Shown: one piece after another, positions 4,660 to 52,435 of the stretch
Numbering within the stretch: the first letter of the stretch is position 1
Layout: the number at the start of each line of letters is the position of its first letter
From: Mangrovibacterium lignilyticum
GTDB lineage: Bacteria > Bacteroidota > Bacteroidia > Bacteroidales > Prolixibacteraceae
Length of the DNA stretch: 64,000 nucleotides
Direction: 5' to 3'
Assembly: GCF_010882175.1 (NCBI RefSeq)
Contig: NZ_WKLH01000003.1
Coordinates: 310,001-374,000 of the forward strand
Notes under the pieces: generated by a model
What the model was told of the DNA's origin: nothing
The model's database searches: none
What the model saw: the letters and a program-made list of their open reading frames with translations, nothing else
Position numbers and translations under genes: made by a program

Positions 4660-5099
4660 GGATGACGCGGCCCCGGAGCAGGTTTGACCCGTCCCTGACG
4701 AGTTTATCTGGTCCCCCGAGCATCGTTGACCGTCCCCTGCGCGATTTGAGCCATCCCCTGTGAAAAATGAGCGTCCCCTGCGGAAAGTGACTCGCTTAAC
4801 GACTAACATTGACCGCTCCATGAGCAATTTCCCACAGTTCATGACGAGCGTTATCCCGTCCCTGAGCAATTTCTCGATTCCAATCGGCACTTTTCGTGCT
4901 GCCCCAAGCCAAATTTTTGACTCAACCGGCTTGGGAAAGGCGCCCATCGGCAATTTTTTTGATTTCATCGGTCAGGTTGGGTTTCCCCGAAGCAGTTTTT
5001 TAGATTTCCGAGCCAAAGGGGAGCCGCCCATCAGCAGTTTTTCTGGTTTCACGAGTCGATTGCTCTGGCGCCGGGGCAGCCTTTTTGGGAAAATAAAAA
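4660..5099. repeat. degenerate 21-bp tandem array A (about 21 units)
   Basis: From 4660 the sequence can be cut into consecutive 21-bp units (4681, 4702, 4723, 4744, 4765 and so on, to 5079) with one 20-bp unit at 4786-4805. In the left half the shared core is close to TTGACC-CGTCCCCTGAGCA. From 4890 the pattern becomes a 42-bp alternation of a T-rich unit and a C/G-rich unit ending in CAGCA or similar. Units differ a good deal, yet the register is kept. Because 21 is seven codons, frames stay open on both strands (a 120-codon ORF at 4760-5122 plus, a 118-codon one at 4612-4968 minus). Neither encodes anything recognisable. There are no spacers, so it is not CRISPR. Confidence 0.85.
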
Positions 5100-5148
5100 A
5101 AGGGGCTGGGAGCATGTCCTGATTTTTTCTAAAATTCTAATCTTTCCC

Positions 5149-5330
5149 TTAAGTCACTAAGCTGGCAAGAGTATCCTCCAAAAACAACTCCTTCTCCGGG
5201 TTGGTGATACCGGCCAGGACAAAGTTCTCAGACACGACTCTGCCTTGGTTTGTCACGAGGCACGCTGGCAGCGTAGGTTGGAGCTAAATATTTTTCACGC
5301 AAGTTAGAGCAGGTCCAGCAACGAAAGCAT
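5149..5330 (-). pseudogene. decayed remnant of an hcp 3' end (copy 1)
   Basis: Translated on the minus strand, this stretch reads VKNI-stop-LQPTLPAC, then VVSENFVLAGIT and ELFLED. It lines up with the C-terminus of the intact Hcp encoded at 8495-10153 ([31 protein letters not shown]). It has an internal stop and a diverged middle. The flank just past its stop (TAAAATTCTAATC) also resembles the sequence past the intact hcp stop. Only the last 60 or so codons can be traced. It cannot make protein. Confidence 0.75.
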
Positions 5331-5653
5331 TTCGAAAGCGCGGGTCTGTGATCCTTTCAGATGGGTAATATCTCCCAAAACAATCACGGTTTGCCGGTTT
5401 TCTGACAATTTATCAAAAAAATGAGCTTGTCGTATGCGGGAATTTACCCATAGATTCTTATTGTATATTATGTCATGTTTCTTAGGCTGCTGGATATTAG
5501 CTCCTTAGTGAGTATTTGTTCAATTTCAGTATAATCACCACTTGATTGAACTCCAAATAAGGAGGAATTTTGGCTTAACGCAATTCGGTAATACTTCAGT
5601 CAAGAAAACTGAGAGGCTTACTACAATAGTTTAAACCCCAAATTCCATTTACC
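5331..5653. other. intergenic stretch between hcp remnant and lipoprotein gene
   Basis: About 320 bp with no convincing gene. On the minus strand a short open stretch just upstream of the hcp remnant encodes IVLGDITHLKGSQTRAFEML, which I cannot assign; it may be another degraded coding fragment. The A/T-rich right part presumably holds the promoter of the lipoprotein gene, but no exact TAnnTTTG box is present. Confidence 0.3.
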
Positions 5654-6067
5654 ATGAAAAAATTATTTTTACTTGCTATCGTTTCTGTATTCCTGTTTGC
5701 CAGCTGTGAAGTCGAAGATTCGGATCCAGGCATGACAGGCAAGTTTCAAGGGAAAATTGCTTCTCTCTTAATTCACGGCGAATATACAATTGACGGAAGT
5801 CGTTGTGCCACGATTAAAGTGACTGCCGGTGCAACCGACAATGAGATTATTTTTAATGACTACTACGGGGCGGCAATTCGCGCCATTTTGGTCAATAGCA
5901 GTTTTACAATTCCTACGCAGGAAGTGACTTATGAAGGGATAACTTACAGCATTTCGGGCAGTGGATATACGACCAAAGACGGTATGTATTTCTCGTCAAG
6001 TGCAATCTTTTACGTTGAAGGAGTACTCTGGGAAAAATCAGAATCAGGAGATTTAAGCAAACTATAA
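5654..6067 (+). CDS. hypothetical lipoprotein
   Basis: This 137-residue protein has a typical lipoprotein signal: KK, a hydrophobic stretch, then FASC with the lipid-modified cysteine at residue 19. The acidic residues EVEDSDPG directly after the cysteine are the kind of lipoprotein export signal that Bacteroidota use for surface display. The mature part is rich in S, T, G and I, suggesting a small beta-sandwich. I recognise no family. It stands alone between a decayed hcp fragment and a strong hairpin terminator. Confidence 0.72.
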   Translation: MKKLFLLAIVSVFLFASCEVEDSDPGMTGKFQGKIASLLIHGEYTIDGSRCATIKVTAGATDNEIIFNDYYGAAIRAILVNSSFTIPTQEVTYEGITYSISGSGYTTKDGMYFSSSAIFYVEGVLWEKSESGDLSKL

Positions 6068-6451
6068 GACGACTGCAATTAACACAATCCGAATTCGCTC
6101 AATGATCGATATTTGGTGCAGCAGTTTACTACGCTGTCGTGGATCTGCAATTTGACAAATTGATGAGAAGGGCACCTCTGAAGGGGGTGCCCTTCTCGTT
6201 TAGCTAAAATTTCAAGCTTAGTCTTTAGCGGAGAAGTTGGGTTTTCAGCGGATAGAGTGTTCAAGGAGCCTCTGAGGCTTAGAATAGCTTGGATGTAATA
6301 CGATTTAACTGGTTGTGATCATCTGTTAGCATAATTCACACGAACGAAATCATTGCCTGCTCATTGTTTATCAAAATAGTAGATGGGTGTATTGCTATTC
6401 TTCCTCATTTCCAGTATCTTTTATTGAAAATCACCTAAAAAGATTCGAATT
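6068..6451. other. intergenic region with terminator, no gene
   Basis: 384 bp between a lipoprotein gene and the interrupted exported-protein gene. The only clear structure is the 12-bp stem at 6165-6197, entered separately. The right-hand part is A/T-rich leader without an exact -7 box. Confidence 0.4.
6165..6197. terminator. strong hairpin, GGGCACC type (copy 1)
   Basis: GAGAAGGGCACC (6165-6176) pairs perfectly with GGTGCCCTTCTC (6186-6197) around a nine-base loop. The stem core GGGCACC/GGTGCCC recurs at 7326-7356 and, damaged, at 8428-8447. The three hairpins look like paralogous copies. Confidence 0.75.
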
Positions 6452-7282
6452 ATGAAAACAGGATTTATTTTATAGGTTGTCGTCTGTCTTATGGTGGCTG
6501 GTTCGGTCCAGGCACAAGAGGAAAGTGTTAACATTGAGATGGAAGATCTTCTTCCAACACTCTGGAATTTATCAACTATTCAGAGTTTCTTTGAAATGCA
6601 TGATGTTACTTATTATCCGGAGATTTTGAATGAGCCGCTGAAGGCTAAAGCTTATGAAGGAGATCATAAGATTGCTGCCAATATGGGGGTTTACATGACT
6701 GATTTAGCCTACACCGTTGGTACAGAAGGTTATGCTGTTGGCAACCCCAGTTATGGTGCTTTAATGGAGTTGGCAGATAAAGAAGGATTAGCCGAGGAAT
6801 TCCCCGATTTAATTATCGAGCGCTATGCGGACAGCGATGCAACGGTTGATTCGCTCATGCAGATGTTCGATAATATGCTGGAAAACGGAGAAAAGGAAAT
6901 GTCGGGAAAAGATATAAAGGAGTTCCACGATTTCATCATCATGGGAAATTATATTGAGAAACTGTATGTCGTAGCTGAGTTGGTGGAGAAAAACAGCCGG
7001 AGCGGTTCCGATTACGAAGCGGCCAAAAACTTAAATCGCGAATTGTTATTATTTATGGCGAAACAGGGGGATAATTTGGATGAATTGTCGAAACTGATGA
7101 TCGGTTACTCGTCGAATGTGGTTGATCACAAAGATCTTCAGAAGCTCGTTGTCGACTACGAGCAATTGAAAGCAAAGAAGGATCAGCTGATTGAGCTTAG
7201 CGCTGATGAAATTTACAAGCATCCACTCGTAAAAGACATCGTTGAAAATATTACCAAAGTAAGAACGCGTGTGGTTGAGTAA
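6452..7282 (+). pseudogene. exported protein of unknown function with a UAG inside its signal peptide
   Basis: The natural start is ATG at 6452. The first codons read MKTGFIL, then UAG (6473-6475), then VVVCLMVAGSVQA, QEES and on for 255 more residues. Without the stop this is an ordinary signal peptide with cleavage after VQA. Reinitiation at ATG 6491 would give 263 residues but only a clipped hydrophobic stretch. The mature part is acidic and alpha-helical with no stops, and resembles hypothetical secreted proteins of Bacteroidota; I cannot name a family. The intact remainder suggests a recent mutation, a sequencing error, or readthrough. It is marked pseudogene because the export signal is broken. 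Confidence 0.65.
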
Positions 7283-7325
7283 GTCGATTGATTCAACCGG
7301 CTTTCCACGTCAGCGAATAATAGAA

Positions 7326-7356
7326 AAAAGGGCACCTGTTGCAAGGGTGCCCTTTT
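7326..7356. terminator. hairpin terminator, GGGCACC type (copy 2)
   Basis: AAAAGGGCACC (7326-7336) pairs with GGTGCCCTTTT (7346-7356). The T-run on the plus strand and the A-run on the left make it bidirectional. It ends the upstream gene and faces the hcp remnant on the other side. Confidence 0.8.
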
Positions 7357-7386
7357 CTGTTAAAATCCCAATCTCCCTTTAGATCG

Positions 7387-7535
7387 TTAACCAGGCAACA
7401 GCGTCCTCCAAAACAGTTTTAGATCTTCATCGATTGATTGTGATCCCGGTAATGGGGAAGTTCTCTACCAGTGCGCTAGCCAAGTTTGGCGACAGGAATG
7501 TGGCGATGTTGGGCGGAGCTGAAAAACGAATAAAT
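7387..7535 (-). pseudogene. decayed remnant of an hcp 3' end (copy 2)
   Basis: On the minus strand it reads PNIATFLSPNLASALVENF, then PITGIT. After a one-base frameshift it continues SIDEDLKLF to a stop at 7387-7389. The intact Hcp has [17 protein letters not shown], then GIAGIT, then SVDEDMKLF at its C-terminus. The flank AAAATCCCAATCTCCC (7362-7377) is also shared with the region past the intact hcp stop (8464-8479). It is less decayed than copy 1. Confidence 0.85.
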
Positions 7536-7676
7536 ACGCTTCGTAGTAGTTGCTATGGCGCCCCACAAAAGCAAATATTATCTGCGCTTATCTGCGTTAA
7601 CCGTGAATTATATCGTACCTTCTATTTTTTAAGGATTCACGAGTATGAATTTTACAGCAATAGAAAGGGCAAGTAC

Positions 7677-8342
7677 ATGTGTTTCTCACCTGAAGCCAGT
7701 TTTGCCAGTGGTGCCATCATCACGGCGATTGGTTTTGCCACGGTAAAAAAAGTGCATCATCCGGCACAGCTCGTCTTTGCAGGGATTCCGTTATTTTTTG
7801 GGGTCCAGCAAATCGCGGAGGGTGTCTTGTGGCTGAGCCTGCTCTCCGGTGGATCTGAAACAATACGGATATTCAGTACTTACTTTTTTCTGATTATGGC
7901 CGAAGTCATTTGGCCGTCTTTAATTCCGCTCTCGGTGTTCCTGATGGAGAAAAATGAAAAACGGAAAAAGATTTTACGTGGATTGTTATTTGCAGGAATG
8001 CTGTTGTCCGGCTATTATGCCTTTTGTTTGCTATCGTATTATGTATCGCCCCGGATCGTTTATTTTCATGTTCAATACAATAATGATTTCCCCACTTCAT
8101 TGGCTCTGCCGGCGTTTTGTTTGTACCTGATTGTAACCATCGTCCCGCTTTTTGTATCCGAAGTTCGAAAAACCAAGTGGCTGGGGATTTTGATGCTTCT
8201 GTCGTGTACGGTGACTATCCTGTTTTTCAGGCAGTATCTCACCTCGGTGTGGTGTTTTTTTGCAGCGTTAATCAGTGGGGTGGTGTACTGGATTCTCCAT
8301 TCGTCAAAGGAAAAATTTAAGTTGGGTAAAATCCAATTTTGA
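7677..8342 (+). CDS. DUF6629-like membrane protein
   Basis: The true start is the ATG at 7677, because the protein then begins MCFSPEASF, the conserved N-terminus of DUF6629 proteins. The longer frame upstream of it runs through the antisense of the hcp remnant. The 221-residue product has about seven hydrophobic segments, with a short charged loop EKNEKRKK, so it lies in the inner membrane. Function is unknown for the family. It sits between two copies of the hcp 3' end, as if it had been caught in a duplication. Base use does not stand out. Confidence 0.72.
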   Translation: MCFSPEASFASGAIITAIGFATVKKVHHPAQLVFAGIPLFFGVQQIAEGVLWLSLLSGGSETIRIFSTYFFLIMAEVIWPSLIPLSVFLMEKNEKRKKILRGLLFAGMLLSGYYAFCLLSYYVSPRIVYFHVQYNNDFPTSLALPAFCLYLIVTIVPLFVSEVRKTKWLGILMLLSCTVTILFFRQYLTSVWCFFAALISGVVYWILHSSKEKFKLGKIQF

Positions 8343-8423
8343 CCGCTATTCCGGTGAGAAAACTGCTTAAATCCGTTATCGTGGATTTACTAGCCGGGCT
8401 TTGTTTTGGAACAAACAAAAGCA

Positions 8424-8447
8424 GAAAGGGCACCCAAGCGGATGCCC
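8424..8447. terminator. degenerate hairpin, GGGCACC type (copy 3)
   Basis: GGGCACCC (8428-8435) faces GGATGCCC (8440-8447) with one mismatch. It has the same position relative to hcp as copy 2 has relative to the hcp remnant, so it is probably the (weakened) hcp terminator. Confidence 0.5.
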
Positions 8448-8494
8448 CATCATTCTTACACTAAAAAATCCCAATCTTCCCAATAATCTAAAAA

Positions 8495-10153
8495 TTATGC
8501 TTCTGATGGTTCCAGGAACAACTTCATATCTTCATCGACTGATGTAATACCGGCAATGCCGAAGTTTTCAACCAGTACGCTGGCTACGTTTGGCGACAGG
8601 AATGCCGGCAATGTTGGTCCGAGGTGAATGTTTTTCACTCCCAGAGAAAGCAGGGCCAACAACACAATCACCGCTTTTTGCTCGTACCAGGCAATGTTGT
8701 AGGCGATTGGCAGGTCGTTTACATCTTCCAGTTCAAAAATCTCTTTTAATTTCAGTGCGACCACTGCCAGTGAATACGAGTCGTTGCACTGTCCGGCGTC
8801 GATCACGCGAGGAATCCCGTTGATGTCGCCCAAAGGCAATTTGTTGTAACGATATTTGGCACATCCTGCAGTCAGGATCACAGTGTCTTGCGGTAGTTTT
8901 TGTGCAAACTCTTCATAGTAGTCGCGGCTCATCATGCGGCCATCGCAACCAGCCATCACAAAGAACTTGCGGATCGCACCGGTTTTCACGGCTTCAACAA
9001 TCGGCTCGGCCAATGCAAAAACCTGGTTGTGTGCAAATCCACCAACGATTTCACCCTCTTCGATTTGAGTAGGAGCGGCACATTTTTTTGCATGCTCAAT
9101 AACTAGCGAGAAGTCTTTCATTTCACCTTCTTTGCGATCCGGAATGTGGATGGCGCCGGTTAATCCGCTGGCTCCTGTTGTGTAAATTCGGTCTTTGTAA
9201 GATGCTTTTTCGAGTGGTGGAACAATACAGTTGGTGGTGAACAGGATCGGTCCGTTGAAGGATTCGAACTCTTCTTTTTGTTTCCACCAGGCGTTTCCGT
9301 AGTTACCAACCAGGTGTTCGTATTTCTTGAATTCAGGGTAGTAGTTGGCCGGCAACATTTCGCTGTGGGTGTACACATCCACGCCGGTGCCTTCAGTTTG
9401 TTTCAGCAGGTCATCCATGTCGCGCAGGTCGTGTCCTGAAATCAGGATAGCTGGCTTGTTCCGAACACCGATGTTTACTTTGCTCACTTCCGGATTTCCG
9501 TATGCGCTGGTATTGGCAGCATCCAGCAGGGCCATCACATCCACACCGAATTTACCGGTTTCCAGCGTCAGGCCAACCAATTCGTCAACCGACAAATCTT
9601 GTGTTGTTTTCGCCAGGGCTTCCATCATAAAGTCGAAAATCTCTTGTTTTTCGTGTTTCAGGTTATAAGCATGTTCGGCATAAGCAGCCAGGCCTTTCAA
9701 ACCATAAATGATCAATTCTTTTAAAGAACGAACATCTTCGTTTGCTTCACTCAATACACCTACTTCTTCGGCTTTCGCTTCAAATTCGTCGCCGGTTGAG
9801 GCGGTCCAGTGCAATGAATCATGGTCGCCGATCAGCAGTCCTGCAGCCGCTACTTTACCTTTCAGTTCGTCACGGAATTTCAAGGTTTTTTTGATGCGAA
9901 TAACGAAGGCTGTGTGATCGAAGTTCGCATTGGTAATGGTGCTGAACAAACCGTCGAATACCACTTTGTTGGCTTTCTTGTCAGCCTGACCAACCGTTTT
10001 TAGCTGGCCGTTCAAAATTGAAACGCCTTTTAGAACGAACAGGAGGGTATCCTGTAAATTCGCTACATCACTGGTTTTTCCGCAAACTCCTTTGATCGTA
10101 CAGCCGATTCCTTTGGCCGCTTCCTGACACTGATAACAAAACATGTTTTCCAT
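8495..10153 (-). CDS. hcp: hydroxylamine reductase / hybrid cluster protein
   Basis: The 552-residue protein has the usual length of an Hcp. The N-terminal cysteines FCYQC (C6, C9) and GCTIKGVC (C18, C24) hold the cubane cluster. Hybrid-cluster segments are present, including [31 protein letters not shown] and AGQCNDSYS. It reduces hydroxylamine and, in other bacteria, acts as a nitric oxide reductase under anaerobic nitrosative stress. A ferredoxin-type gene lies 134 bp upstream on the same strand, and a divergent Crp/Fnr regulator beyond that. Start is MENM or the second M. Two decayed copies of its 3' end lie within 3.4 kb downstream. Confidence 0.96.
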
Positions 10154-10254
10154 TTGATTCGATTTTATATTTTATGATTTTTTTGACAATAGAATTCCAG
10201 GCCTCCCTTTTGAAGGCTTTTAGAGATTCAATAAAATGAATGATTGAAGTGATA

Positions 10255-10279: not shown

Positions 10280-10287
10280 ATCTTAGG

Positions 10288-17616: not shown

Positions 17617-17631
17617 CGACCATAATATACG

Positions 17632-22106: not shown

Positions 22107-23405
22107 ATGCAACACCGAAAAAAGAAAAAGAATAAGCTTCTTCCGATTTTAATTGTTCTGACCATCGTTGTCATCATTGTGCTGATTGTCGGCAAAAAGA
22201 AAGGATGGTTTGGCGCCGATTTTCAGGTGAGCGTTGTTTCGCAGAAGGTTGAAAGCAGAACCATTACCGAGTTGATTACCGCCAACGGTAAAGTACAGCC
22301 CAAGATTGAAATCAAAATTAGCCCCGATGTGTCGGGCGAGATTATTCAGCTGAATGTGGCTGAAGGCGACGATGTGAAAAAAGGGCAGTTGCTCTTGATC
22401 ATCAAACCCGATATTTACATTCAGACGCTGAACCGGGCCGAAGCCGGTTTAAACTCGGCTAAAGCGATGCAGGCACAGGCCGAGGCGCGCTTGATGGAAA
22501 GCGAACTGGCTTACAAACGTTCCAAACAATTATACGATCAGCAAACCATCGCCCAGTCGGAGTTTGAGTCGGCCGATGCAGCCTATAAAATTGCACAGGC
22601 TGAAGTTCGCTCGGCCGAATTCTCGGTGAAATCGAACGAAGCTTCGGTAGCCGAAGCACAGGAACAGCTGGTAAAAACCAAGATTTACGCGCCGATGGAC
22701 GGTACTGTTTCGCAGCTGAATGTGGAGCAGGGCGAACGCGTGGTTGGAACCAACATGTACGAAGGAACCGTGATGATGGTGATCGCCGATTTGGAACAAA
22801 TGGAAGTGAAAGTTGAGGTGAATGAAAACGACATTGTGAAAGTGTCGAAAAACGATACGGCGCTGGTTGAGGTCGATGCTTACCTGAAGCGCAAATTCAA
22901 AGGCATTGTCACCGAGATTGCCAATTCGGCCAATACTGTTGGGACATCGGGCGACCAGGTGACCAATTTCGATGTGAAAGTGTTGCTGCTGAAATCATCT
23001 TATGAAGATCTGGTTGAAAGCGAAGGCATGAAACGCTATCCCTTCCGTCCCGGAATGTCGGCCACTGTTGATGTGCAAACCGATACGCGTAACGATGTGA
23101 TTGCTGTTCCGATTCAGGCGGTGACGACCCGCATGCCCGAGGATACCGCAAAGGACAGCCTGCAGACAACCGAGCAAAAAGGCGCCGAAAAGCAGGAAGT
23201 CGTTTTTGTTATGCGCGATGGCAGGGCTTATAGCCAGCCTGTTGAAACCGGTATTCAGGATAATATGAGTATCGAAATTGAAAGCGGTCTGAAAGCCGGC
23301 GACGAAATTATTACCGGCCCTTTCATCGTGGTGAGCCGCACACTGAAAGACAGTATGCAGGTGAAACCCGTAGACGAGAAAGAGCTGTTTAGCGCCAAAA
23401 AATAA
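22107..23405 (+). CDS. periplasmic adaptor (membrane fusion protein) of an efflux system
   Basis: The 432-residue protein has an N-terminal membrane anchor after a very basic start (HRKKKKNK). A lipoyl/barrel domain (ANGKVQPKIEIKISPDVSGEI), a long coiled-coil hairpin (about residues 110-195) and a second barrel half follow. The architecture matches MacA/HlyD-type adaptors. Such genes are normally followed by an ABC permease (MacB) or pump plus TolC, but here a terminator and a repeat array follow instead. It may work with a transporter elsewhere or be a leftover of a reduced operon. The gap to lysC is 96 bp. Confidence 0.88.
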   Translation: MQHRKKKKNKLLPILIVLTIVVIIVLIVGKKKGWFGADFQVSVVSQKVESRTITELITANGKVQPKIEIKISPDVSGEIIQLNVAEGDDVKKGQLLLIIKPDIYIQTLNRAEAGLNSAKAMQAQAEARLMESELAYKRSKQLYDQQTIAQSEFESADAAYKIAQAEVRSAEFSVKSNEASVAEAQEQLVKTKIYAPMDGTVSQLNVEQGERVVGTNMYEGTVMMVIADLEQMEVKVEVNENDIVKVSKNDTALVEVDAYLKRKFKGIVTEIANSANTVGTSGDQVTNFDVKVLLLKSSYEDLVESEGMKRYPFRPGMSATVDVQTDTRNDVIAVPIQAVTTRMPEDTAKDSLQTTEQKGAEKQEVVFVMRDGRAYSQPVETGIQDNMSIEIESGLKAGDEIITGPFIVVSRTLKDSMQVKPVDEKELFSAKK

Positions 23406-23464: not shown

Positions 23465-23654
23465 GAAGGTGACCGGTGGCTCCCAGGGTTCGGTTATTTG
23501 TCCGTTGTAACCGGCTATATTAATCGGCCAGTTCAATTCGGTTTTATTCGATACTCGTTCAGTTTAAAGTGAGAATGGGAAGCTTTCGGATCGGGTTTGG
23601 GAGAAACACAAGCGGGAACATCTGTCCGGAAAACCGGGGAAACATCGGTAAGGC

Positions 23655-23961
23655 TCTTGACGAATGATAAGCAGTTGGTCTCTGGTTGATGTTGGCTTGA
23701 ATATGAACCGTAGTTGTGGTTCCGCTCATCGATAAAAGGCGAATGTAAACCGTGGAAGAGGTCTCTTTCATTGATGGGGTCGCAACTTCGGTTTAAAAAA
23801 GCTTTTTTGTATTTAAGATGTCTCTACTTAGATTGAAGAAACGATTTTTTAGACTAAAGATGGCGCGACTTCTGTTTAAGAAATGATATTTTGTACTTAA
23901 GACGTCTCAACTTAGACCTAAGTTGACACAACTTAGATCTATAAAATGGGTTTATTGTTCA
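23655..23961. repeat. degenerate 21-bp tandem array C (about 15 units)
   Basis: The best part is 23776-23961, nine consecutive 21-bp units (23776, 23797, 23818, 23839, 23860, 23881, 23902, 23923, 23944), most ending in TTAAG, TAAAG or GAAG. Alternate units resemble each other more (TTTTTTGTA-type against CTCAACTTAGA-type), a 42-bp higher order. The same register can be followed leftwards to about 23655, with alternating units ending in GATG and CCGT, and more weakly to about 23590. On the plus strand the in-register frame meets stops at 23794 and 23884, so it is not a gene. The array lies between two convergent genes. Confidence 0.78.
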
Positions 23962-24695: not shown

Positions 24696-25853
24696 TTACA
24701 ATTTTTTGCCGGTGTGGAAACTGTTCCAGAATTTCTCGTCGTAGCTGGTATCTTCAAAGTAGCTGCGTCCCGAAATCGGTTGGGGATATTTCTCCAGGTC
24801 GAGCAGCGCTGCTTTCCGCGAAAGGCTGATTGTTGCTCCGTCGGCATTGGTAAACGATTTGTCCTGGTCCATATAACTCAGCAGGTACATGCCACCTTGT
24901 TTTTGGTAAATGGTGGTGAAATGGTAGCTAACGTTTTGCTGTGCATTTCCGGTTGTATACAAGCTGCGGTTTTGTGGGTTGTTCTTGCTGGCTTCAATCA
25001 TGCATTCGTGGCGAACCAAGGCGTAGTTGGTTTTCAGAATGTATAATTTGCCTTCCATTTTCGTGGCATAATAGTCGCCGCTGTGTGCTACGTCGGGTTT
25101 CGCTGTTTTGTATGAAATAACCCAAACGGAATCGCCTTCGTACGAGCTGACGCCTTCCAGGTGCAAATCGTAATCGTTGAGCAGCTTCTCGTTGAAGACG
25201 GTGTTTGCCTGGCGGGCAATATCCTGATCAATCAACTCATCAAAACCGGTTTGCCCTTCAGCAAACGACAATGATTCGAAGTTCTTATTCACCTCGGTGA
25301 ACTTGTAATTGCGGTTGTTATAAGCGTCTTTCAAATTGGGCGAGCTGTATCCGCTTTGGTCGGTCATCTCAACAATGGCTTCGCGTACTTCACTGGTCGA
25401 GTCGTTCAGGATTGCTTTCCCCAGGTAGTGGTATTTCATCCCGATTGGCCCGGCGTGGTAGTTGTCCGGTACCTTTTCAGCAGCCGTCCGGATTACCCGA
25501 AACAGGACCCGCGACTGTGCTGCCACATCAATCCCTTCAATGCTGTAGGTTTGCTCAACCAGCGCGATGCGTGCAAATTCCTTTTGCATCAATTCGGATA
25601 CCGGGTAACTTTGGTTCTCATAGCCCACCGCCGACACAAACAACATTTTGCCGGCAAATTCATCGGGAATCTTCAATTCAAAAAAACCATCCGCGTCACT
25701 GGCGGTTCCGTAAAAAGTCCCTTCAATTCCGATGTTGGTGTAGGCTATGCCCGATTGGTTGTTCGAGTCAACAATCCGTCCTTTTATTAATTTGGTTTGA
25801 GCCTGTAGTGTTATTGTGAGAAACAGACATGCGATAATGAGAATGTGTTTCAT
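24696..25853 (-). CDS. secreted protein with N-terminal carboxypeptidase-regulatory-like domain
   Basis: The 385-residue protein has a signal peptide ending near LQAQ. A CarboxypepD_reg-like beta-sandwich follows (KGRIVDSNNQSGIAYTNIGIEGT through GTASDADGFFELKIP, about residues 23-65). This domain opens many TonB-linked and surface proteins of Bacteroidota. The rest, about 270 residues, shows no plug or barrel and no family I can name, so it is probably a periplasmic or outer-membrane-attached protein. It is not a SusC. Confidence 0.78.
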   Translation of the reverse strand: MKHILIIACLFLTITLQAQTKLIKGRIVDSNNQSGIAYTNIGIEGTFYGTASDADGFFELKIPDEFAGKMLFVSAVGYENQSYPVSELMQKEFARIALVEQTYSIEGIDVAAQSRVLFRVIRTAAEKVPDNYHAGPIGMKYHYLGKAILNDSTSEVREAIVEMTDQSGYSSPNLKDAYNNRNYKFTEVNKNFESLSFAEGQTGFDELIDQDIARQANTVFNEKLLNDYDLHLEGVSSYEGDSVWVISYKTAKPDVAHSGDYYATKMEGKLYILKTNYALVRHECMIEASKNNPQNRSLYTTGNAQQNVSYHFTTIYQKQGGMYLLSYMDQDKSFTNADGATISLSRKAALLDLEKYPQPISGRSYFEDTSYDEKFWNSFHTGKKL

Positions 25854-33817: not shown

Positions 33818-33910
33818 TTTGCCTGCCGTTCATCCTAATTTAGCCGGATAACTCTATATTTATTCCTTCGAATCACAAGTTGGCTTTGTCGGCTTTCAAT
33901 TTTGAAATTC

Positions 33911-35251
33911 ATGAAGAGAAGAATCGCGCTGTTTGTCGTTCTGCTGATTATCTTATCGGCGGGTTTCTACCTGAACCTGGTCTTGCCCGTGATAACCGGC
34001 TATGCGGCTAAAAATCTCGCATCCGGGGTATTTGTGGCTGGTCGGTCGCAAGAGTCGCTGGAATCGGAAGATCTGAACTTCTCGGTTATCAAGTTCACCG
34101 AGAATAAAGTCGATTTTGAAAATAAGGAAGTGACTTCCCGGTTTTTGTGGGGCAAGTCAACGGCTGTTTATATTGAAGGGTACGGTTGCACCCTGGTTGA
34201 GGATTATACCGCTGATGAGATTCGCAACCGTCATTATCCGCAAACGCATGTTTTACCGACAAATCCCGACAGCATTGCCTGGCCAATGGGGGCGGCGACG
34301 GCTGATAGCCTTCCGGCAGGAATTGATATCCCGAAGTTGAATCATGCGGTAGCGAAGGTCATGTCCGACAGTATTCCGTTTAAAGGAACCTTTGCCTTGA
34401 TGGTGGTTTACAAAGGGCAAGCTGTAGCCGAAGTTTACCGCAACGACTTCACCCGTAATACGCGTTTCCTGGGCTGGTCGATGGGCAAGAGCTTTGTCAA
34501 TACATTGGTTGGTATTCGCGAAAAACAAGGAATGATAGACATTAATGCGCCGCTGTCGTTTTCGACCTGGGATGCGGGCGATCCCCGGCAGATCACAACG
34601 AATAACCTCATGCACATGAATTCGGGCCTGGAATGGGATGAAAGTTACGGCACCCTGTCGGATGTAACGGTTATGCTGCATAAAGAGGGTGATATGGCCA
34701 GCTACGCCCTGGAACACGACGTTGCCTATCCGGCTGATTCGGTCTGGGCATACTCGTCCGGAACCACCAATATTGCCTGCCTGGCGCTGCGGCAGACGTT
34801 TGCCTCGGATGCCGACTACTGGCGGTTTCCCCGCGAACAACTCTTCAATAAAATCGGTATGAGAAGCGCAGTGCTTGAAATGGACGCTTCTGGTACTTTC
34901 GTCGGTTCGTCGTATGTGTATGCAACCCTGCGCGACTATGCCCGTTTTGGCTTGCTGTATCTGAAAAACGGGAACTGGCTCGGCGAGCAAATTCTGCCCG
35001 ACAATTGGGTGTCATACACCACAACTCCGGCGAAAGGCTCTGATGGCAACTATGGCGCTTTCTTTTGGCTCAACCTGTCGGGCGACCAACCCGATGCGCC
35101 TGCCGATACCTACATGAGTAAAGGGCACGACGGACAGTTTATAATCATCATCCCTTCAAAAGACCTGGTGGTGGTGCGTACCGGCTATTCGAAAAAAGGT
35201 GAGTTCAGTACCAACGAAATGTTGAAGGAAATTCTGAAGAGTTTGGAGTAA
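33911..35251 (+). CDS. serine hydrolase of the class C beta-lactamase/S12 family
   Basis: The 446-residue protein starts at ATG 33911 (a TTG three codons earlier is also in frame). One N-terminal membrane anchor lies at about residues 7-25, with a periplasmic domain behind it. The SxxK motif is S190-M-G-K193. The second motif is YSSGTTN, where YxN is expected, and KGHDGQ takes the place of KTG. This places it among esterase or D-amino peptidase relatives rather than true beta-lactamases. It is monocistronic; a 21-bp repeat array starts 40 bp after its stop. Confidence 0.88.
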   Translation: MKRRIALFVVLLIILSAGFYLNLVLPVITGYAAKNLASGVFVAGRSQESLESEDLNFSVIKFTENKVDFENKEVTSRFLWGKSTAVYIEGYGCTLVEDYTADEIRNRHYPQTHVLPTNPDSIAWPMGAATADSLPAGIDIPKLNHAVAKVMSDSIPFKGTFALMVVYKGQAVAEVYRNDFTRNTRFLGWSMGKSFVNTLVGIREKQGMIDINAPLSFSTWDAGDPRQITTNNLMHMNSGLEWDESYGTLSDVTVMLHKEGDMASYALEHDVAYPADSVWAYSSGTTNIACLALRQTFASDADYWRFPREQLFNKIGMRSAVLEMDASGTFVGSSYVYATLRDYARFGLLYLKNGNWLGEQILPDNWVSYTTTPAKGSDGNYGAFFWLNLSGDQPDAPADTYMSKGHDGQFIIIIPSKDLVVVRTGYSKKGEFSTNEMLKEILKSLE

Positions 35252-35290: not shown

Positions 35291-35563
35291 GACGGGACGA
35301 CTTTCCGGCCAATTTATTGGCCAGTTTTTATGAAAGTGTACAACGACCTAAAAAAACCGCGCATAGATTTAATGAATTCGTACAGTGTCCTAAAAAGACC
35401 GCGCACAGTTTTTATAAAATGGGATAGCGGCCTAAAAACCTTGCGCACAGATTTAATGAATCCGTACAAGGGCCTAAAAACATGGCGCGCAGATTTAATC
35501 AATTGGAGCAGTTTGGTAAAAACTAAATTTTACTTTTTACCAAACCGTACTGTTTCCTAAAAA
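35291..35563. repeat. degenerate 21-bp tandem array B (13 units)
   Basis: Units of exactly 21 bp begin at 35291, 35312, 35333, 35354 and so on to 35543. Two types alternate. One carries a CGCGCACAGATTTAATG-like core (35354, 35396, 35438, 35480). The other carries a GTACA core and ends in CCTAAAA (35333, 35375, 35417, 35459). This makes a 42-bp higher-order unit. Both strands stay open through much of it (62 codons minus, 76 plus), the minus reading being FIK-rich and FRPL-rich heptads. Neither has an established start or relatives I know. It lies between convergent genes, before the manC terminator. Confidence 0.88.
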
Positions 35564-35735: not shown

Positions 35736-36824
35736 TTAAACGAATTTATTGCCTTTTTGTAAGCGAACATCATTCACAAAATGGCGGATGTGTTGTTCAT
35801 CTTCTTTGCGGCAAATCAGCAGCACTTCTTCCGAATCAACTACGATGTAGCCATCAAGGCCCTGCAAAATAGCCACTTTTCCATCGGGCATATTAACGAT
35901 GCTATTCTGCGTATCGTACAGGAACACACTGTCGCCTTTCACAACATTGTCTTCTTCCGTTTTTGGCTGCTGGCCATATAAAGCACCCCAGGTTCCTACA
36001 TCGCTCCAGCCAAAGTCGGCGCACAGTACATACACATTATCGGCTTTCTCCATAATACCGTAATCGATGGACGTATTTTGGCACTCCGAGTAAGTTTTGT
36101 TGATGAAAAAAACTTCGTCAGCCGTGCCGTACATTTTTTCACCTTTCGAAAACAGTTCGTGAATGTCGGGTAAGTGCTTTTTAAACGCTTCGCAAATCGA
36201 TTGGATTGACCAGATGAAGATGCCCGAGTTCCAGTAAAATTCGCCGCTTTCGAGGAAAATTTTGGCCATCTCGAGATTGGGCTTTTCGGTGAATGTCTTC
36301 ACTTTGTACAACGAATCGCTTTCACCATTGGCGACCTCGTTCTCAATTTGGATGTATCCGAAGCCGGTTTCAGGGCGGCTGGGCGGAATGCCTAAAGTTA
36401 ACAGGGCGTTGTTCTTGCTGGCAAACGCAATTCCCTTTTGCAGTTGCGATTGAAACTCCGGTTCGTTCAGAATCAGGTGATCTGACGGAGCGACAACCAT
36501 GGTGGCATCGGGGTTCATTTTTCTTACCCGGTTACTCGCATAAGCAATACAGGGTGCGGTATTTCGGCGTAGGGGTTCCAGCAAAATCTGGCTTTCCTGA
36601 ATCTCGGGTAACTGCTCGAGAACTAATTCCTTGTAATCTTGATTGGTAACAATAATAAAGTTTTCAACAGGGCAAATGTGCTTAAACCGGTCGAAAGTCA
36701 TTTGAATAAATGTGCGACCAGTACCGAGAATATCTAAAAATTGTTTCGGCATGGTGCTTTTGCTCAAGGGCCAAAAACGACTTCCAATACCTCCGGCCAT
36801 AATCACACAATACGTATTTTCCAT
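35736..36824 (-). CDS. manC: mannose-1-phosphate guanylyltransferase
   Basis: The 362-residue nucleotidyltransferase begins with VIMAGGIGSRFWPLSKSTMPKQF, the GTP-binding and catalytic signature. FTEKPNLEMAKIFL and WNSGIFIWS complete the sugar site. It makes GDP-mannose for glycans and exopolysaccharide. It lacks the C-terminal isomerase domain of the bifunctional AlgA/ManC type. An exact TAnnTTTG box precedes it; the divergent neighbour is mlaE. Confidence 0.95.
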   Translation of the reverse strand: MENTYCVIMAGGIGSRFWPLSKSTMPKQFLDILGTGRTFIQMTFDRFKHICPVENFIIVTNQDYKELVLEQLPEIQESQILLEPLRRNTAPCIAYASNRVRKMNPDATMVVAPSDHLILNEPEFQSQLQKGIAFASKNNALLTLGIPPSRPETGFGYIQIENEVANGESDSLYKVKTFTEKPNLEMAKIFLESGEFYWNSGIFIWSIQSICEAFKKHLPDIHELFSKGEKMYGTADEVFFINKTYSECQNTSIDYGIMEKADNVYVLCADFGWSDVGTWGALYGQQPKTEEDNVVKGDSVFLYDTQNSIVNMPDGKVAILQGLDGYIVVDSEEVLLICRKEDEQHIRHFVNDVRLQKGNKFV

Positions 36825-37803: not shown

Positions 37804-38573
37804 TGATCCGTGTTGAAAGTATCTATAAATCATTTGAAGGAAAGTCGGTTCTGCGGAATATCTCCACCGAATTTCTGAAAGGACAGACCAACCTGATTAT
37901 CGGGCGAAGTGGCTCGGGGAAAACGGTTTTGTTAAAATCGATTGTTGGCTTGCACGAAGTTGATGAAGGGAATATCTTCTACGACGATCGGAACTTCACA
38001 ATCATGAAGCCCAAGGTCCGGAAGAAACTTCGCCAGGAAATGGGCATGGTTTTTCAGGGGGGCGCTTTGTTCGATTCGCTGTCGGTGGCCGAAAATGTTC
38101 GTTTCCCGCTCGATATGTTTACGAACCAAACGCATGCTGAAAAGGAAAAACAAGTTGCTTTCTGCCTGGAACGAGTCAACATTAGCCCGGAAGCTTTCAA
38201 CCTTTCACCTGCCGAAATTTCAGGTGGTATGCAAAAGCGGGTGGCTATTGCCCGGGCGATTTCTCTGAACCCAAAATATTTGTTTTGTGATGAACCCAAT
38301 TCCGGTCTCGATCCGGAAACATCAATCGTGATTGACAGCCTGATTCATGAGATCACAACAGATCTGAATATTACCACCATTATCAACACCCACGATATGA
38401 ACTCGGTGATGGAGATTGGTGATAAAATTCTGTTCATCAGCGAGGGTGAGATGTGCTGGGAAGGTAACAAAACAGAAATCCTGCATGCTGAAAATAAAAA
38501 GCTTCAGGAATTTGTGTTCGCTAACCGCCAATATAAAGAAATGCGCGATGCGCGTTTAGGAAATGAAGCTTAG
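37803..38573 (+). CDS. mlaF: MlaF family lipid ABC transporter ATPase
   Basis: The 256-residue ATPase has Walker A GRSGSGKT (about residues 35-42), the signature ISGGMQKRVAIARAI, Walker B YLFCDEPNSGLDP and a switch histidine in NTHDM. It couples ATP use to the MlaE permease. It starts inside the stop codon of mlaE, so the two are translationally coupled. Two bases separate its stop from that of porX on the opposite strand. Confidence 0.94.
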   Translation: MIRVESIYKSFEGKSVLRNISTEFLKGQTNLIIGRSGSGKTVLLKSIVGLHEVDEGNIFYDDRNFTIMKPKVRKKLRQEMGMVFQGGALFDSLSVAENVRFPLDMFTNQTHAEKEKQVAFCLERVNISPEAFNLSPAEISGGMQKRVAIARAISLNPKYLFCDEPNSGLDPETSIVIDSLIHEITTDLNITTIINTHDMNSVMEIGDKILFISEGEMCWEGNKTEILHAENKKLQEFVFANRQYKEMRDARLGNEA

Positions 38574-45955: not shown

Positions 45956-45957
45956 GC

Positions 45958-46698: not shown

Positions 46699-46712
46699 AA
46701 CTCGTGTCTAAT

Positions 46713-47180: not shown

Positions 47181-47219
47181 GGAAAAATCTAATGTGTTTT
47201 TTGTGTTGAAATGTCGGAA

Positions 47220-48470: not shown

Positions 48471-48624
48471 AGTTGATTTATTAGTTCTGAACGCCTTAGG
48501 CAATAATAGATGCCTATGACAAACAGGCTTCAAAAATAATCATAATTGCTGACAAACAAGCCGCAAATTCGATGCTTTGCATTTTATACAGCATGATACT
48601 TGTCAGCGTGGGCTGGCCCGGGAA

Positions 48625-49749
48625 TTATTTTCGGATGAGTTTAACGATGCGCAGTGCCATATCGGTGAAAATAATTTTGGGATTGCCATTCATGCTGATG
48701 TGTAAGATCGACCGTTCAATCTCTTCGGTAATGGGCATGATGTTCCGTTCGTTAATGAAGGGTGAAAAGCGCGAGGAGAAGGCTTGTTCTTCTTCGTCCA
48801 TGTATACCAGTTGCGGGTTGTTCAGGTTGTTGATGAAGTTTTCGCGAACCTGCCCCAGGGTGTATTGCAGGAAACTTTTTTGGCGTTCGCGACCAATGTT
48901 TGACAGTTCTGTCACCCACGAAAATAAGTCGAGAAACTTACGTCCATAGGTGAGGCGCATGAGTTCTTTAAATTTTTCGAGGTTGTACCGGTCCTGATTT
49001 TCCGGATTCAGCAGTTGCAAGGCTTTCCGGTAGTTGCCTCGACTCAGATGGGCAATGCGTGTCGTGTTTTTTCCTTCAGCGTCTGGGAGTTCGTTCAGGC
49101 GTTCAACCAACTCATGCTCATCTATAGCCGGAACTTTGGTGAGTTGGCAACGCGAACGAATGGTCGAGATGAGCTGTTCTTCATTCTCGGAAACAAGTAT
49201 GAAGAGCGTTTTGGATGGCGGTTCCTCAATCATTTTCAGGAGCTTGTTCGAACACGACTGGTGCATTTTTTCAGGCATCCAGATGATCATCACTTTGTAT
49301 TCCGATTCGTAGGATTTCAAATTCAGCTTCCGGATGATTTCATCACTTTCCTGGGTGTAGATCATGCCCTGAGCGTTATCGGTTCCAATGAAATTAAACC
49401 AGTCTTCCTGGCTAAAATAGGCACCGTTGAGAATCATTTTCCGCCATTCTTCAATATAGTCGGTACTAACCGGATCTTTGAATTTGGGCGATTTGACAAC
49501 CGGATAAACAAAGTGAAGGTCGGGGTGGGCCAGACGCGCATATTTTTTGCACGACGGGCAGCTACCACACGAATCGTCGGCCTGCTTGTTGGTACACGAC
49601 ACATATTGGGCATAAGCCAACGCCAACGCCAGGTTTCCGGATCCCTCGGGCCCGGCATATAGCTGAGCATGACTAATCCGTGATTCGTTGATGGTTTGAA
49701 TAAACCGCTTCTTGATTGCTGACTGGCCAATAATATCGCGAAAAAACAT
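48625..49749 (-). CDS. holB: DNA polymerase III subunit delta'
   Basis: The 374-residue AAA+ clamp-loader subunit has HAQLYAGPEGSGNLALALAYA (a degenerate P-loop; G-S-G-N without the Walker lysine) and CGSCPSCKKYARLAHPDLHFVYP, the zinc module. LIDEPPS-like MIEEPPSKTLFIL and STIRSRCQLT (SRC motif) follow. This is the pattern of delta', which does not hydrolyse ATP. It is the first gene of the row that runs to mrp. Confidence 0.93.
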   Translation of the reverse strand: MFFRDIIGQSAIKKRFIQTINESRISHAQLYAGPEGSGNLALALAYAQYVSCTNKQADDSCGSCPSCKKYARLAHPDLHFVYPVVKSPKFKDPVSTDYIEEWRKMILNGAYFSQEDWFNFIGTDNAQGMIYTQESDEIIRKLNLKSYESEYKVMIIWMPEKMHQSCSNKLLKMIEEPPSKTLFILVSENEEQLISTIRSRCQLTKVPAIDEHELVERLNELPDAEGKNTTRIAHLSRGNYRKALQLLNPENQDRYNLEKFKELMRLTYGRKFLDLFSWVTELSNIGRERQKSFLQYTLGQVRENFINNLNNPQLVYMDEEEQAFSSRFSPFINERNIMPITEEIERSILHISMNGNPKIIFTDMALRIVKLIRK

Positions 49750-49999
49750 AGGCTGATTTTAGAGTGCAAGCAAAAATAAGAAAATTAAACAAGGCAAAAG
49801 GAAAAACGTAGAAAGGCAAAAAGAAATTGCGGCCCACTGATTGAATCCTTCGTTTGACAAGCGATGACAACTGAGCGATGATCCGTGAAAGCAAAATAGT
49901 CACCGGACAAGAGCATATCGGCTGTTTGCTTTCATTACCTCATTATTAATAAATGACCAATTAGAAGATGGAGCCGAAAGCGCAAACTTTTCTTTTTTG

Positions 50000-50007
50000 T
50001 ATCTTTG
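50000..50007 (+). promoter_or_regulatory. -7 box of pgk
   Basis: TATCTTTG is an exact TAnnTTTG, 35 bp before the pgk ATG. The rest of the 293-bp divergent region with holB shows no other signal. Confidence 0.65.
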
Positions 50008-50042
50008 GAGCCGTATCAAAAAGAACCTAAAAATAATCTATT

Positions 50043-51233
50043 ATGCAGACAATTGAATCGTATGATTTCAAAGGCAAAAAGGCGTTAATCCGTGTTGACT
50101 TTAACGTTCCTTTGAATGAAAATTTCGAGATCACTGATGATACCCGTATGACTGCTGCGGTACCTACTATTAAAAAAGTAATTGAAGCTGGTGGTTCTCC
50201 TATTATCATGTCTCACTTTGGTCGTCCGAAAAACGGTCCGGAAGATAAATTCTCCATGAAACACCTGGTTGCCCATTTGGCCGAATTGTTGGGTGTGGAT
50301 GTGAAATTGGCTCCTGATTGTGTTGGTGCAGAAGTTAAAGCTTTGGCTGAAGCATTGAAACCGGGTGAAGTATTGTTGCTGGAAAACCTGCGTTTCCACA
50401 AAGAAGAAGAAAAAGGTGACGAAGCTTTTGCCGGTCAGTTAGCTGAATTGGGTGACTGCTGGGTAAACGATGCTTTCGGAACAGCTCACCGTGCTCACGC
50501 ATCAACTGCTGTGATCGCTAAATTCTTCCCAAATGATAAATTGTTCGGTTATTTGGTGAACGACGAAGTGTCGAACCTCGATAAAGTAGTTGCTAACCCT
50601 GCACGTCCGATGACTGCAATCATGGGTGGTGCTAAAGTTTCGACTAAAATTACAATCATCGAAAACATGTTGGATACGGTAGACAACCTGATTATCGGTG
50701 GTGGTATGATCTTTACTTTCGTGAAAGCTATGGGTGGTAACATCGGTGCTTCATTGTGTGAAGATGATTACCTGGAAATGGCAAAAACGATTATCGCAAA
50801 AGCTGAAGCTAAAGGTGTGAACCTGGTGATTGCTGAAGACTGTGTTGCAGCCGATAAATTTGCCAACGACGCAAACACCGAAGTTTGCCTGACTAAAAAC
50901 ATCAAAGATGGTTGGTTAGGTTTGGATGTTGGTCCTAAAACAATCGCTACTTTCAAAGAAGTGATCGGTAACTCAAAAACTGTTCTTTGGAACGGTCCTG
51001 CCGGAGTATTCGAAATGGATGCTTTTGCTGCCGGTACTAAAGCGATTGGTGATGCCGTTGTTGAAGCAACTAAAAACGGTGCTTTCACCCTTGTGGGTGG
51101 TGGTGATTCTGTTGCTGCTGTTAACAAATTTGGTATTGCTGATCAGGTTTCTTACATCTCTACCGCTGGTGGTGCTATGTTGGAAACATTGGAAGGAAAA
51201 GTTCTTCCTGGTATTGCTGCTGTTCGCGGTTAA
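50043..51233 (+). CDS. pgk: phosphoglycerate kinase
   Basis: The 396-residue glycolytic enzyme has RVDFNVPLN (residues about 17-25), [32 protein letters not shown] and the C-terminal [13 protein letters not shown] nucleotide loop. Codon choice is strongly biased towards a few codons, unlike the neighbours, which fits a highly expressed gene. It has its own promoter and a strong terminator. Confidence 0.98.
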
Positions 51234-51260
51234 TTCAAACAAACATGACAATCGATATAG

Positions 51261-51292
51261 AAGGTTCGGGCTTTGGCCCGGACCTTTTTTTG
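51261..51292 (+). terminator. terminator of pgk
   Basis: AAGGTTCGGG (51261-51270) pairs with CCCGGACCTT (51277-51286) and leads into a T-run. Confidence 0.88.
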
Positions 51293-51408
51293 TTTGGGAG
51301 GTCGATGTCGTAGCGTAATTGATTTAGACCTTCAGTTAAATAAGCTTACTGTTTGTTAAATACTCCCGGATTTACAGAACAGTGGTTTACCTTTAGTAGA
51401 AAAATGTG

Positions 51409-52065
51409 ATGATTAGACCTTTGTTGATCCTGTTGATCTGCGTCTTCTCTTCTATTGAATTGAAGGCGCAAATAGAATCGACCGGAATTCAGAACGACAG
51501 CATCAGGATTCCAATTGGCGGGAATTTATTGCCGGTTCACAGTTTAACTATCCCATCGGGTACTGGAGTTGATTTGTCGGCCCAGTTTAGCCTGTTGCCT
51601 TCAGCCAGTGTCCAAACATCGTTTTCAATGGCTGATTTGTCAGAGCGCTCAGTCGCTGGTTGGCCCGTTTATCCGGGTTTGGCCGACCTTAAGAATTATG
51701 GGGGAACGATAGGGGAATGGTATTATAAGCAGCAATTCGGTTTCGCCTATGGTGTATTTTTAAGCCAGCAATCGGGTTATTCCTTTTCTTCTACTGAGTT
51801 GGGAATTGGGACAAGCATCCTGTTGCGATACCGGCTGGCCGAGCAACTTCAGTTCTTGGTGTGGGGGCAGTATTTTACACCATTAGCGGAACGGGATCCT
51901 GTACTCAAATTGCCTTTCATGTTCAACCAGTCGAAAGCTGGATCGGCTATACAGTATTCACCAGACGACAAGTCGAAATTTCAAATCGGAGTAGAATATG
52001 AGTACGATCCACAGGATAAATCCTGGAAGGCGGAGTCAGGAGGAAAGGTGCAATTTAAGTTTTAG
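51409..52065 (+). CDS. hypothetical secreted protein, probably outer membrane barrel
   Basis: The 218-residue product starts at ATG 51409 (a GTG one codon earlier is also in frame). A signal peptide ends near LKAQ. The rest alternates polar and hydrophobic residues, with aromatic belts (WYYKQQFGFAYGVFLS, LQFLVWGQYFTP), and ends in KFKF-like VQFKF. This suits a small beta-barrel with C-terminal phenylalanine. I recognise no family. It is monocistronic; array D follows 140 bp later. Confidence 0.7.
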   Translation: MIRPLLILLICVFSSIELKAQIESTGIQNDSIRIPIGGNLLPVHSLTIPSGTGVDLSAQFSLLPSASVQTSFSMADLSERSVAGWPVYPGLADLKNYGGTIGEWYYKQQFGFAYGVFLSQQSGYSFSSTELGIGTSILLRYRLAEQLQFLVWGQYFTPLAERDPVLKLPFMFNQSKAGSAIQYSPDDKSKFQIGVEYEYDPQDKSWKAESGGKVQFKF

Positions 52066-52225
52066 TTTGCGATCCGGTTTGACAGCTGTCTGAGTTTCAA
52101 TGGAACAAAGACAATAAAGTCAGCGCCCGTTAACCGGAACGCTGATTCATATCTTATTGGCCTATTGACCGGGTGACTTCGAATAAGACAACTGACACAG
52201 TTTAATGAACATTACCGAACATTCC

Positions 52226-52435
52226 CGTGAGTTAAGCGACATTACTCGCAAATCAAATGACAAAACTCGTGAGTTAAACGACAAAACTCGTGAGTTAAAC
52301 GACATTACTCGTGAATCAAATGACATTACTCGTGAATCAAATGACAAAACTCGTGAGTAAAGCGACATTACTCGCGAGTTAAGTGACAAAACTCGTGAGT
52401 TAAGTGACATTACCCGCGAATAAAGTGACAAATCC
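52226..52435. repeat. 21-bp tandem array D (10 clear units)
   Basis: Ten consecutive units of exactly 21 bp start at 52226 and run to 52435, with one diverged unit before (52205). Each begins CGTGAGTTAA or a close variant and ends GACATTACT or GACAAAACT, these two endings roughly alternating. It is the least diverged of the four arrays. Plus-strand translation gives RELNDIT-type heptads after an ATG at 52205, but TAA interrupts at 52358 and 52421. The minus strand stays open for 110 codons as SRVMSLN-type heptads. Neither is a convincing gene. The array is inside a 497-bp gap before a C_GCAxxG gene. Confidence 0.92.

Follow-up and report, generated by a model that had tools for sequence, protein, structure and literature searches.

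The 64,000-nucleotide stretch of the Mangrovibacterium lignilyticum genome analysed here (the window) carries four intergenic tandem repeat arrays, A to D (Table 1), which repeat at 21 or 42 base pairs (bp). They belong to a class of arrays found throughout this genome and held together by a spacing close to two turns of B-DNA, independently of sequence. We propose that these may be helically phased arrays of putative protein-binding words, located near gene 3' ends and playing a topological or road-block role, and we put the probability of this reading at roughly 0.48, a little under one half. The initial annotation of the window had named the spacing as the common feature of the four arrays, corresponding to two turns of B-DNA or seven codons, and had pointed to a DNA-binding or structural role. 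The two-turn spacing extends genome-wide, and such a role appears, as far as the sequence can tell, to be the best-supported explanation of it.

The period common to the four arrays was borne out by comb scores that exceeded those of all 1000 base shuffles in each case. At 21/42 bp the scores were 0.393/0.408 for A (shuffle maximum 0.288), 0.462/0.524 for B (0.323), 0.368/0.349 for C (0.310) and 0.786/0.798 for D (0.338). The lag profiles peak at 21, 42, 63 and 84, and also at neighbouring lags such as 41 and 83. The 42-bp alternation noticed earlier in A, B and C is also real, since lag 42 gives a stronger single-lag signal than lag 21 in these three arrays; in D the two are roughly equal. 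When the whole window was scanned at lags 8-99, lag 42 picked out precisely the four arrays, lag 21 found D, A and C, and lag 84 found the four together with position 38226. Elsewhere the scan gave one place at lag 57, one at lag 63 and no others.

The same periods dominate a survey of 1.264 Mb of this genome (22% of 5.63 Mb), made up of the window and 60 stretches of 20 kb and covering lags 8-129. Periods of 20, 21, 22, 41 and 42 bp (n = 1, 16, 2, 7 and 10) account for 36 of the 48 arrays detected; the stretches were not random, C9:280-300 kb and 780-800 kb having been chosen on earlier matches, and these contributed two of the 36. Among intergenic arrays 35 of 36 had a period of 20-22 or 41-42 bp, against one of 12 arrays within genes. 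Scaled from the 35, the whole genome would hold about 156 such arrays. Genes were called for this analysis with a minimum score of 25 and a minimum length of 150 bases, and these cut-offs eliminated weak calls overlying four of the 35 arrays; the 5th percentile of scores for calls of 100-233 amino acids is 22, so a few real genes may have been lost. An earlier, cruder gene caller had set many arrays under open frames. In the pooled intergenic DNA (163 kb) the z score was 11.9 at lag 42 and 8.6 at lag 21, and the next lags in rank were 126, 84, 63, 105 and 41. The claim of an exact 21-bp period therefore holds for the window arrays (21/42) and fails genome-wide, where 20, 22 and 41 are also present.

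Because periods of 20, 22 and 41 bp occur, seven codons cannot be the general cause of the spacing, and two helical turns fits. It is scarcely credible that the arrays encode, or once encoded, peptide repeats of seven residues (heptads). Twenty-one bp is of course seven codons, and 15 of the 35 intergenic arrays lie mostly under an open frame of at least 100 amino acids lacking a coding score, with four under a weak gene call. Such frames carry little weight, because an open frame comes at little cost when the unit length is divisible by three, and units of 20, 22 or 41 bp break the reading frame. No 3-bp component was detected in the unit columns (p = 0.983, 0.369 and 0.947 for three codings), there was no excess of slips by 3 (lags 21k plus or minus 3), and no single open frame with codon-level constraint was found. 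The window arrays have stops in nearly all frames: A and B each have a frame with one stop, and no frame of C has fewer than three. An earlier account of the stops is corrected here in that D has one minus-strand frame without any.

One family of arrays, F3, has words at about two helical turns and near-random sequence between them. Its three loci in this genome (L140, L076 and L007) all lie between convergent genes. A CCTGTT word recurs each 20-21 bp and is inverted about a fixed central dyad: 8-10 forward words are followed by 8-9 reverse words at 20/21 bp (with one skip of 40), and 8 bases separate the last forward word from the start of the first reverse word at all three loci. CCTG and CAGG together occur 20, 20 and 18 times, compared with a mean of 3.2-4.0 and a maximum of at most 12 in shuffled sequences. 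The words were picked by their CCTG core, so only the positions outside it test conservation, and there the consensus share is 0.62-1.0. The 13-bp spacers are 25-34% identical, which makes it unlikely that the copying of long units is the whole story.

The search for a pattern of three F3 words at 20-21 bp covered 120 genomes of the bacterial family, Prolixibacteraceae, and gave 177 matches in 36 of them, representing 11 of 23 genera. In the same genomes altered spacings gave 15 matches in 6 genomes (16-17 bp) and 8 in 5 (23-24 bp), mostly simple repeats, and a backward control at 20-21 bp gave 38 matches in 12 genomes, 22 of them in two genomes. The matches listed include simple repeats of CCTGTCT (G057, G095) and ordinary 21-bp repeats. 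A switch from plus to minus words, with one base between matches, was found among those listed at two loci of this genome and in G069, which belongs to another genus. The spacers in other genera are not fully random, TTTTT and GGC recurring among the listed matches.

Could the period simply reflect the way in which the units are copied? In this case about 20-21 or 41-42 bp would be duplicated by a helically phased enzyme or template switch, and the copies would then drift without function. Exact integer periods over many units, together with the 42-bp alternation, do look like fixed-block copying. Array B, which occupies a gap of 484 bp, has no counterpart in two related genomes, where the corresponding gaps measure 244 bp (G001) and 135 bp (G003), or at locus L026 of a Sunxiuqinia metagenome-assembled genome (MAG). 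The initial annotation had argued that simple slippage would not maintain the register. This is plausible, and weaker than it appears. In 23 arrays matches above background fall from 0.304 at lag 42 to 0.164 at lag 168 and 0.117 at lag 189, and the mean spill at 21k plus or minus 1 (k = 4-6) is 0.019, compared with 0.023 and 0.040 when indels were planted at 2% and 5% per unit. The register can thus be followed out to lag 189, weakening with distance and leaking little into neighbouring lags, which is compatible with a few per cent of indels per unit. A profile Viterbi count (8 indels, all in one array, against 3108 substitutions) was withdrawn, as it recovered only 30 of 258 planted indels. 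Of 38 arrays (those of fewer than 5 units and one F2 array were left out), 15 had column conservation more uneven than in a uniform-rate simulation at p<0.05, about two being expected; the other 23 fit uniform drift, as functionless copying would have it. It does not account for the 15, nor for F3, which keeps word and spacing while its spacers are dissimilar and whose pattern and dyad recur in other genera. Altogether we consider a purely mutational step distinctly improbable.

Two further properties of the units are relevant to protein binding. The contrast between A/T and G/C along the unit columns has components at 10.5 bp (p=0.003), 2.33 bp (p=0.007) and 21 bp (p=0.040; 20 arrays, 30 tests, p uncorrected). 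Units are palindromic beyond column permutation (P<=0.05) in 12 of 26 arrays, including C among the window arrays (P=0.010). In L089:6825-7094 the units, judged by eye, hold either of two half-words, CCCC/GGGG or GTAC, at fixed places; these look interchangeable, as if two site types were mixed. Wrapping by gyrase was rejected as a general cause because the 41-bp arrays lack the 10.5-bp A/T signal.

The arrays tend to lie between convergent genes and near gene 3' ends. Convergent gaps of at least 150 bp contain arrays in 11 of 36 cases, compared with 24 of 306 other gaps (p=2.7e-4), and in tandem gaps 16 of 21 arrays are nearer the upstream 3' end (p=0.027; 18 arrays from this genome, 2 from G001 and 1 from G005). 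Divergent gaps hold 6 of the 35 intergenic arrays. At 54 flanking 3' ends a predicted terminator precedes the array in 20 cases, lies only inside it in one and only after it in four; the control figure was 68 of 250. According to the available text of the sources, positive supercoils gather between convergent genes in Escherichia coli and yeast (PMC8360656), and gyrase cuts preferentially downstream of operons with high transcription, at a motif with GC waves of 10.75 bp (PMC6379681).

The arrays might instead be transcribed 3' regions that act as RNA, folding into long hairpins that serve as terminators or stabilisers. Of 31 arrays, truncated at 300 nucleotides and compared with 25 shuffles each, 9 folded better than the shuffled sequences on both strands (z below -5), as such a role would predict; palindromic protein sites also produce self-complementarity. 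The window arrays gave z values from -1.3 to -4.5, and other arrays fold no better than shuffles (L093, z +2.1/+4.0; L005, L009 and L090b, near zero). In 21 tandem and 17 convergent arrays neither C nor T was skewed with respect to the strand of the upstream gene, and for this reason a Rho-type or other strand-specific signal was rejected. Rfam gave no gathering-score match within the window. Action at the DNA level seems to fit these sequences better than action as RNA, which we regard as very improbable.

The arrays do not share a single sequence. Among 44 arrays 14 pairs were related at E<1e-3 (3 among five-fold column-shuffled copies), and there is no conserved palindromic sequence common to all of them: they form several unrelated families and many singletons. 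The members of some families are thus one element present at several intergenic loci, and the remaining arrays have no kin in the sample. F1 consists of array D and two further loci of this genome; when D's relative L023 was searched against 119 further genomes of the bacterial family, no kin emerged. Of the 120 genomes, only this one holds F4, at three loci, and F5 has two loci. F2 comprises array A, two more loci of this genome, 7 matches at 6 loci of G001, 5 matches on 4 contigs of G002 and single or double matches in G023 (1), G053 (2) and G102 (1), which extend it to two other genera. The description of the four window arrays as unrelated has to be modified accordingly: both A and D have relatives elsewhere in this genome, and A in other genera too.

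F2 looks like a mobile element. By eye its copies have similar left ends and variable numbers of units, and in four of the six printed G001 copies the left end adjoins a common further sequence, directly or at most about 60 bases off. The common sequence beside L150, L159, L161 and L163 contains ..CTATTTTAGGAAAAG.. and is perhaps a leader or a neighbouring miniature inverted-repeat transposable element (MITE). A mobile origin of F2 is likely, and is compatible with a binding role. The main rival to our reading extends this origin to all families: each would be a MITE-like element that contains tandem repeats and is moved by a transposase encoded elsewhere, and the period would come from the element's own make-up or from transposase contacts every two turns. 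The case is strongest for F2, and the recurrence of families at several loci is in line with it. There is also a precedent in Porphyromonas gingivalis, where the available text of PMC4596501 describes the BrickBuilt MITE (23-nucleotide repeats, leader and tail) and PgRS/464 (41-nucleotide repeats). Neither a target-site duplication nor a terminal inverted repeat has been established for the arrays, no systematic right-end search or duplication test having been run. Mobility leaves unexplained why many unrelated families should have one spacing and why the F3 spacers are near-random. As an account of the arrays we think it somewhat unlikely.

Queries resembling F2 also found repeats outside the bacterial family. 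Two other families of the order have 21-bp repeats with a GGGGAYG core (L201:1402-1902 in G639 and L204:1169-1459 in G617). Of five loci inspected, L201 and L206 (G639) and L204 (G617) are 21-bp repeats, L205 (G601) has short repeats with lags of 12 and 21, and L199 (G255) is not an array of this sort. One F2 array of G001 (C1:320860-321200; L093, L150) lies at a rearrangement junction, flanked by orthologs of window genes 24696-25853 and 8495-10153, which are about 15 kb apart in the window. In G053 an F2 copy (L155, C8:42516) adjoins a short open reading frame which, by eye, we take to resemble the start of an IS21-type IstA with an early stop.

The best named relatives of one window protein are Mangrovibacterium marinum (76%) and the Sunxiuqinia MAG (75%). 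The distribution of arrays among related genomes is mixed. In G001 two-turn periods were found in 7 of 10 arrays (220 kb) and 6 of 9 arrays (a further 400 kb). Its C1:250-370 kb was chosen for synteny, three of the six arrays in the 400-kb sample are F2 copies already known, and the G001 count in the intergenic lag and placement analysis includes one heptamer array. G003 is syntenic with the window; of the 36 window proteins that have orthologs in both genomes, 31 are more similar in G003 than in G001. It had no arrays of these periods in 220 kb, where 6.1 were expected (P 0.0023). One array was found in 200 kb of G005 (5.5 expected), and none of these periods in 100 kb of G023 (2.8 expected). 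In G004 (60 kb) there was one 42-bp array and one 22-bp array belonging to a heptamer lattice, and samples of 40-80 kb from each of eight further genomes contained no arrays of these periods. The excess at lags 21 and 42 that had been expected of intergenic DNA in this genome and its relatives is therefore present here and in G001 and absent from G003.

How might the arrays work? Words of about 6-10 bp, or two half-words forming a palindrome, would be set every two helical turns on one face of the helix. With one word bound per two turns, neighbouring proteins would line up into a lattice covering some 150-500 bp close to the 3' ends of genes, convergent gaps being the commonest site. Such a lattice could act as a topological or road-block element, for example by holding or resolving positive supercoils between convergent genes. 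Units would arise by tandem copying and drift, with selection keeping word and spacing. We infer the binding, the kind of protein, a topological function and, for most arrays, selection over a purely mutational step from the features described above.

Several observations weigh against this proposal. The 2.33-bp component scored nearly as well as that at 10.5 bp, and the latter is absent in ten 41-bp arrays. Uniform drift fits 23 of 38 arrays, and A, B and D are not significantly palindromic. The random-spacer word structure was seen in no family other than F3. At order level a stricter F3 word occurred in 14 of 242 genomes (13 besides the present one, 45 matches) compared with 12 genomes (32 matches) for the control, no clear excess, so that the pattern, on present sequences, is not shown to extend beyond the bacterial family. 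This control and the share of arrays fitting uniform drift make lattice formation less probable and strengthen the mobile-element and RNA alternatives. The arrays are dispensable, judging by their absence from the G003 sample. Placement may reflect tolerance of insertions; array D itself is nearer its downstream gene. Of the 54 flanking 3' ends, 29 have no predicted terminator. The families differ in their words, so either several proteins are needed or sequence matters little; no binding protein was identified, and none was searched for. The family of array A resembles a mobile element in its dispersed copies and common ends. Finally, gyrase enrichment downstream of operons seems, from the available text, not to be hard-wired in sequence (PMC6379681).

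A bolder version of the proposal, which we consider speculative and rather unlikely, would give some of the Bacteroidota a system resembling chromatin: proteins would assemble on the DNA near gene 3' ends in steps of two turns, and intergenic DNA would have been shaped into sequence-diverse arrays with nothing in common but this step. The heritable feature would then be the step and not the sequence. This would be analogous to the way in which eukaryotic satellite lengths follow the nucleosome.

The arrays share features with several known systems. Plasmid iterons and centromeres of the ParR/parC type contain direct repeats about 20-22 bp apart, with the bound proteins on one face of the DNA. 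The repeat step is the same as in our arrays; iterons and parC sites, however, are confined to a few loci at an origin or centromere, whereas here many words are spread over about 150 chromosomal loci by extrapolation. The repetitive extragenic palindromic (REP) sequences of enterobacteria have a conserved sequence in common. Like REPs and the bacterial interspersed mosaic elements (BIMEs), our arrays are extragenic and lie mostly 3' of genes or between convergent genes, and other likenesses are partly palindromic units, paired units and a suggested topological role. REP/BIME are not known to have a fixed two-turn period across unrelated families. BIME-2, according to the available text of PMC6379681, carries gyrase sites.

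In P. gingivalis tandem repeats of 41, 23 and 22 nucleotides occur, the first two inside MITE-like elements (PMC4596501, available text). As in our case, BrickBuilt and PgRS/464 are intergenic imperfect tandem repeats (23 and 41 nucleotides) of a member of the Bacteroidota, present at multiple loci with variable unit numbers. The difference is that each of theirs is one sequence family with inverted-repeat ends (PMC4596501), whereas the arrays described here are many unrelated families sharing only their spacing, one of them with near-random spacers and a dyad. It is suggestive, by analogy, that the three P. gingivalis periods fall near the same two-turn step. A further parallel is offered by the BldC operators of Streptomyces, where protein multimers line up head to tail along direct repeats that vary in number; these are, however, 9-bp sites in promoters bound by one protein (PMC5859096, available text). 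The TAACTGA repeats of Beggiatoaceae, Cyanobacteria and five Bacteroidetes resemble our arrays in being many intergenic short-word repeats per genome; they consist of a single heptamer, which in BOGUAY is found mainly right before start codons, and the available text states no two-turn spacing (PMC4679880). In the open-licence PubMed Central (PMC) literature we found no account of a genome-wide two-turn repeat period, and the available text of PMC5771137 makes no mention of such repeats.

Bacterial repeat classes are usually defined by sequence. What unites the present class is spacing, and 35 of 36 intergenic tandem arrays detected in the sampled part of this genome fall into it. If a protein lattice sets the spacing, a bacterial system of chromatin or topology could be read from the footprint that it leaves in the genome, and a two-turn lattice might account for the P. 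gingivalis repeats as well. F3, with one word, one spacing, a central dyad and an occurrence in several genera, would be a ready probe for the putative protein.

Table 1. Repeat arrays of the window and the genes beside them
Feature	Position	Strand	Remarks
DsbD_2-family gene	3938..4645	+	upstream of array A
Array A	4649..5099	+	family F2; period 42 (21+21); starts 3 bases past the stop of the DsbD-like gene
HlyD-family gene	22107..23405	+	upstream of array C
Array C	23655..23961	none	period 42; between convergent genes
PF00144 (beta-lactamase-fold) family gene	33902..35251	+	upstream of array B
Array B	35291..35563	none	period 42; between convergent genes
Nucleotidyl transferase gene	35736..36824	-	convergent to array B
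Gene without Pfam match	51460..52065	+	upstream of array D
Array D	52212..52435	none	family F1; period 21; core ACTCGYGAGT
C_GCAxxG_C_C protein gene	52563..53009	+	downstream of array D

With the genes called here, convergent genes flank only B and C, and the gaps of A and D are tandem; the initial annotation had placed three of the four in convergent gaps. It had also pointed to a motif, TTATTGGCC, just left of B, C and D. This was rejected as a shared mark of the arrays, since 24 places in the window match TTATTGGCC or its complement with at most one mismatch, and position 23520, given for array C, is not among them. Array C begins about 0.2 kb beyond the predicted terminator of the plus-strand gene. 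The left end of array A (4649-4689), compared by eye, resembles those of the copies in related genomes.

Further arrays were noted in the relatives. Heptamer-lattice arrays, a distinct repeat type with 7-bp units, are present at L107:3198-3495, L109:14016-14178 (G004) and L050:9353-9456 (G001); the lags of L107 include 14, 29, 36, 43, 50, 57 and 64. A 41-bp array of G001 (L095:8342-9022) has 16 units with a mean identity of 0.75 and changes its sequence type after about 4 units; each unit apparently contains two palindromes. In the syntenic block of G001, arrays L093 and L092:2998-3314 lie near the sites of window arrays C and D and differ from them in sequence, which may reflect either hotspots or conservation of position.

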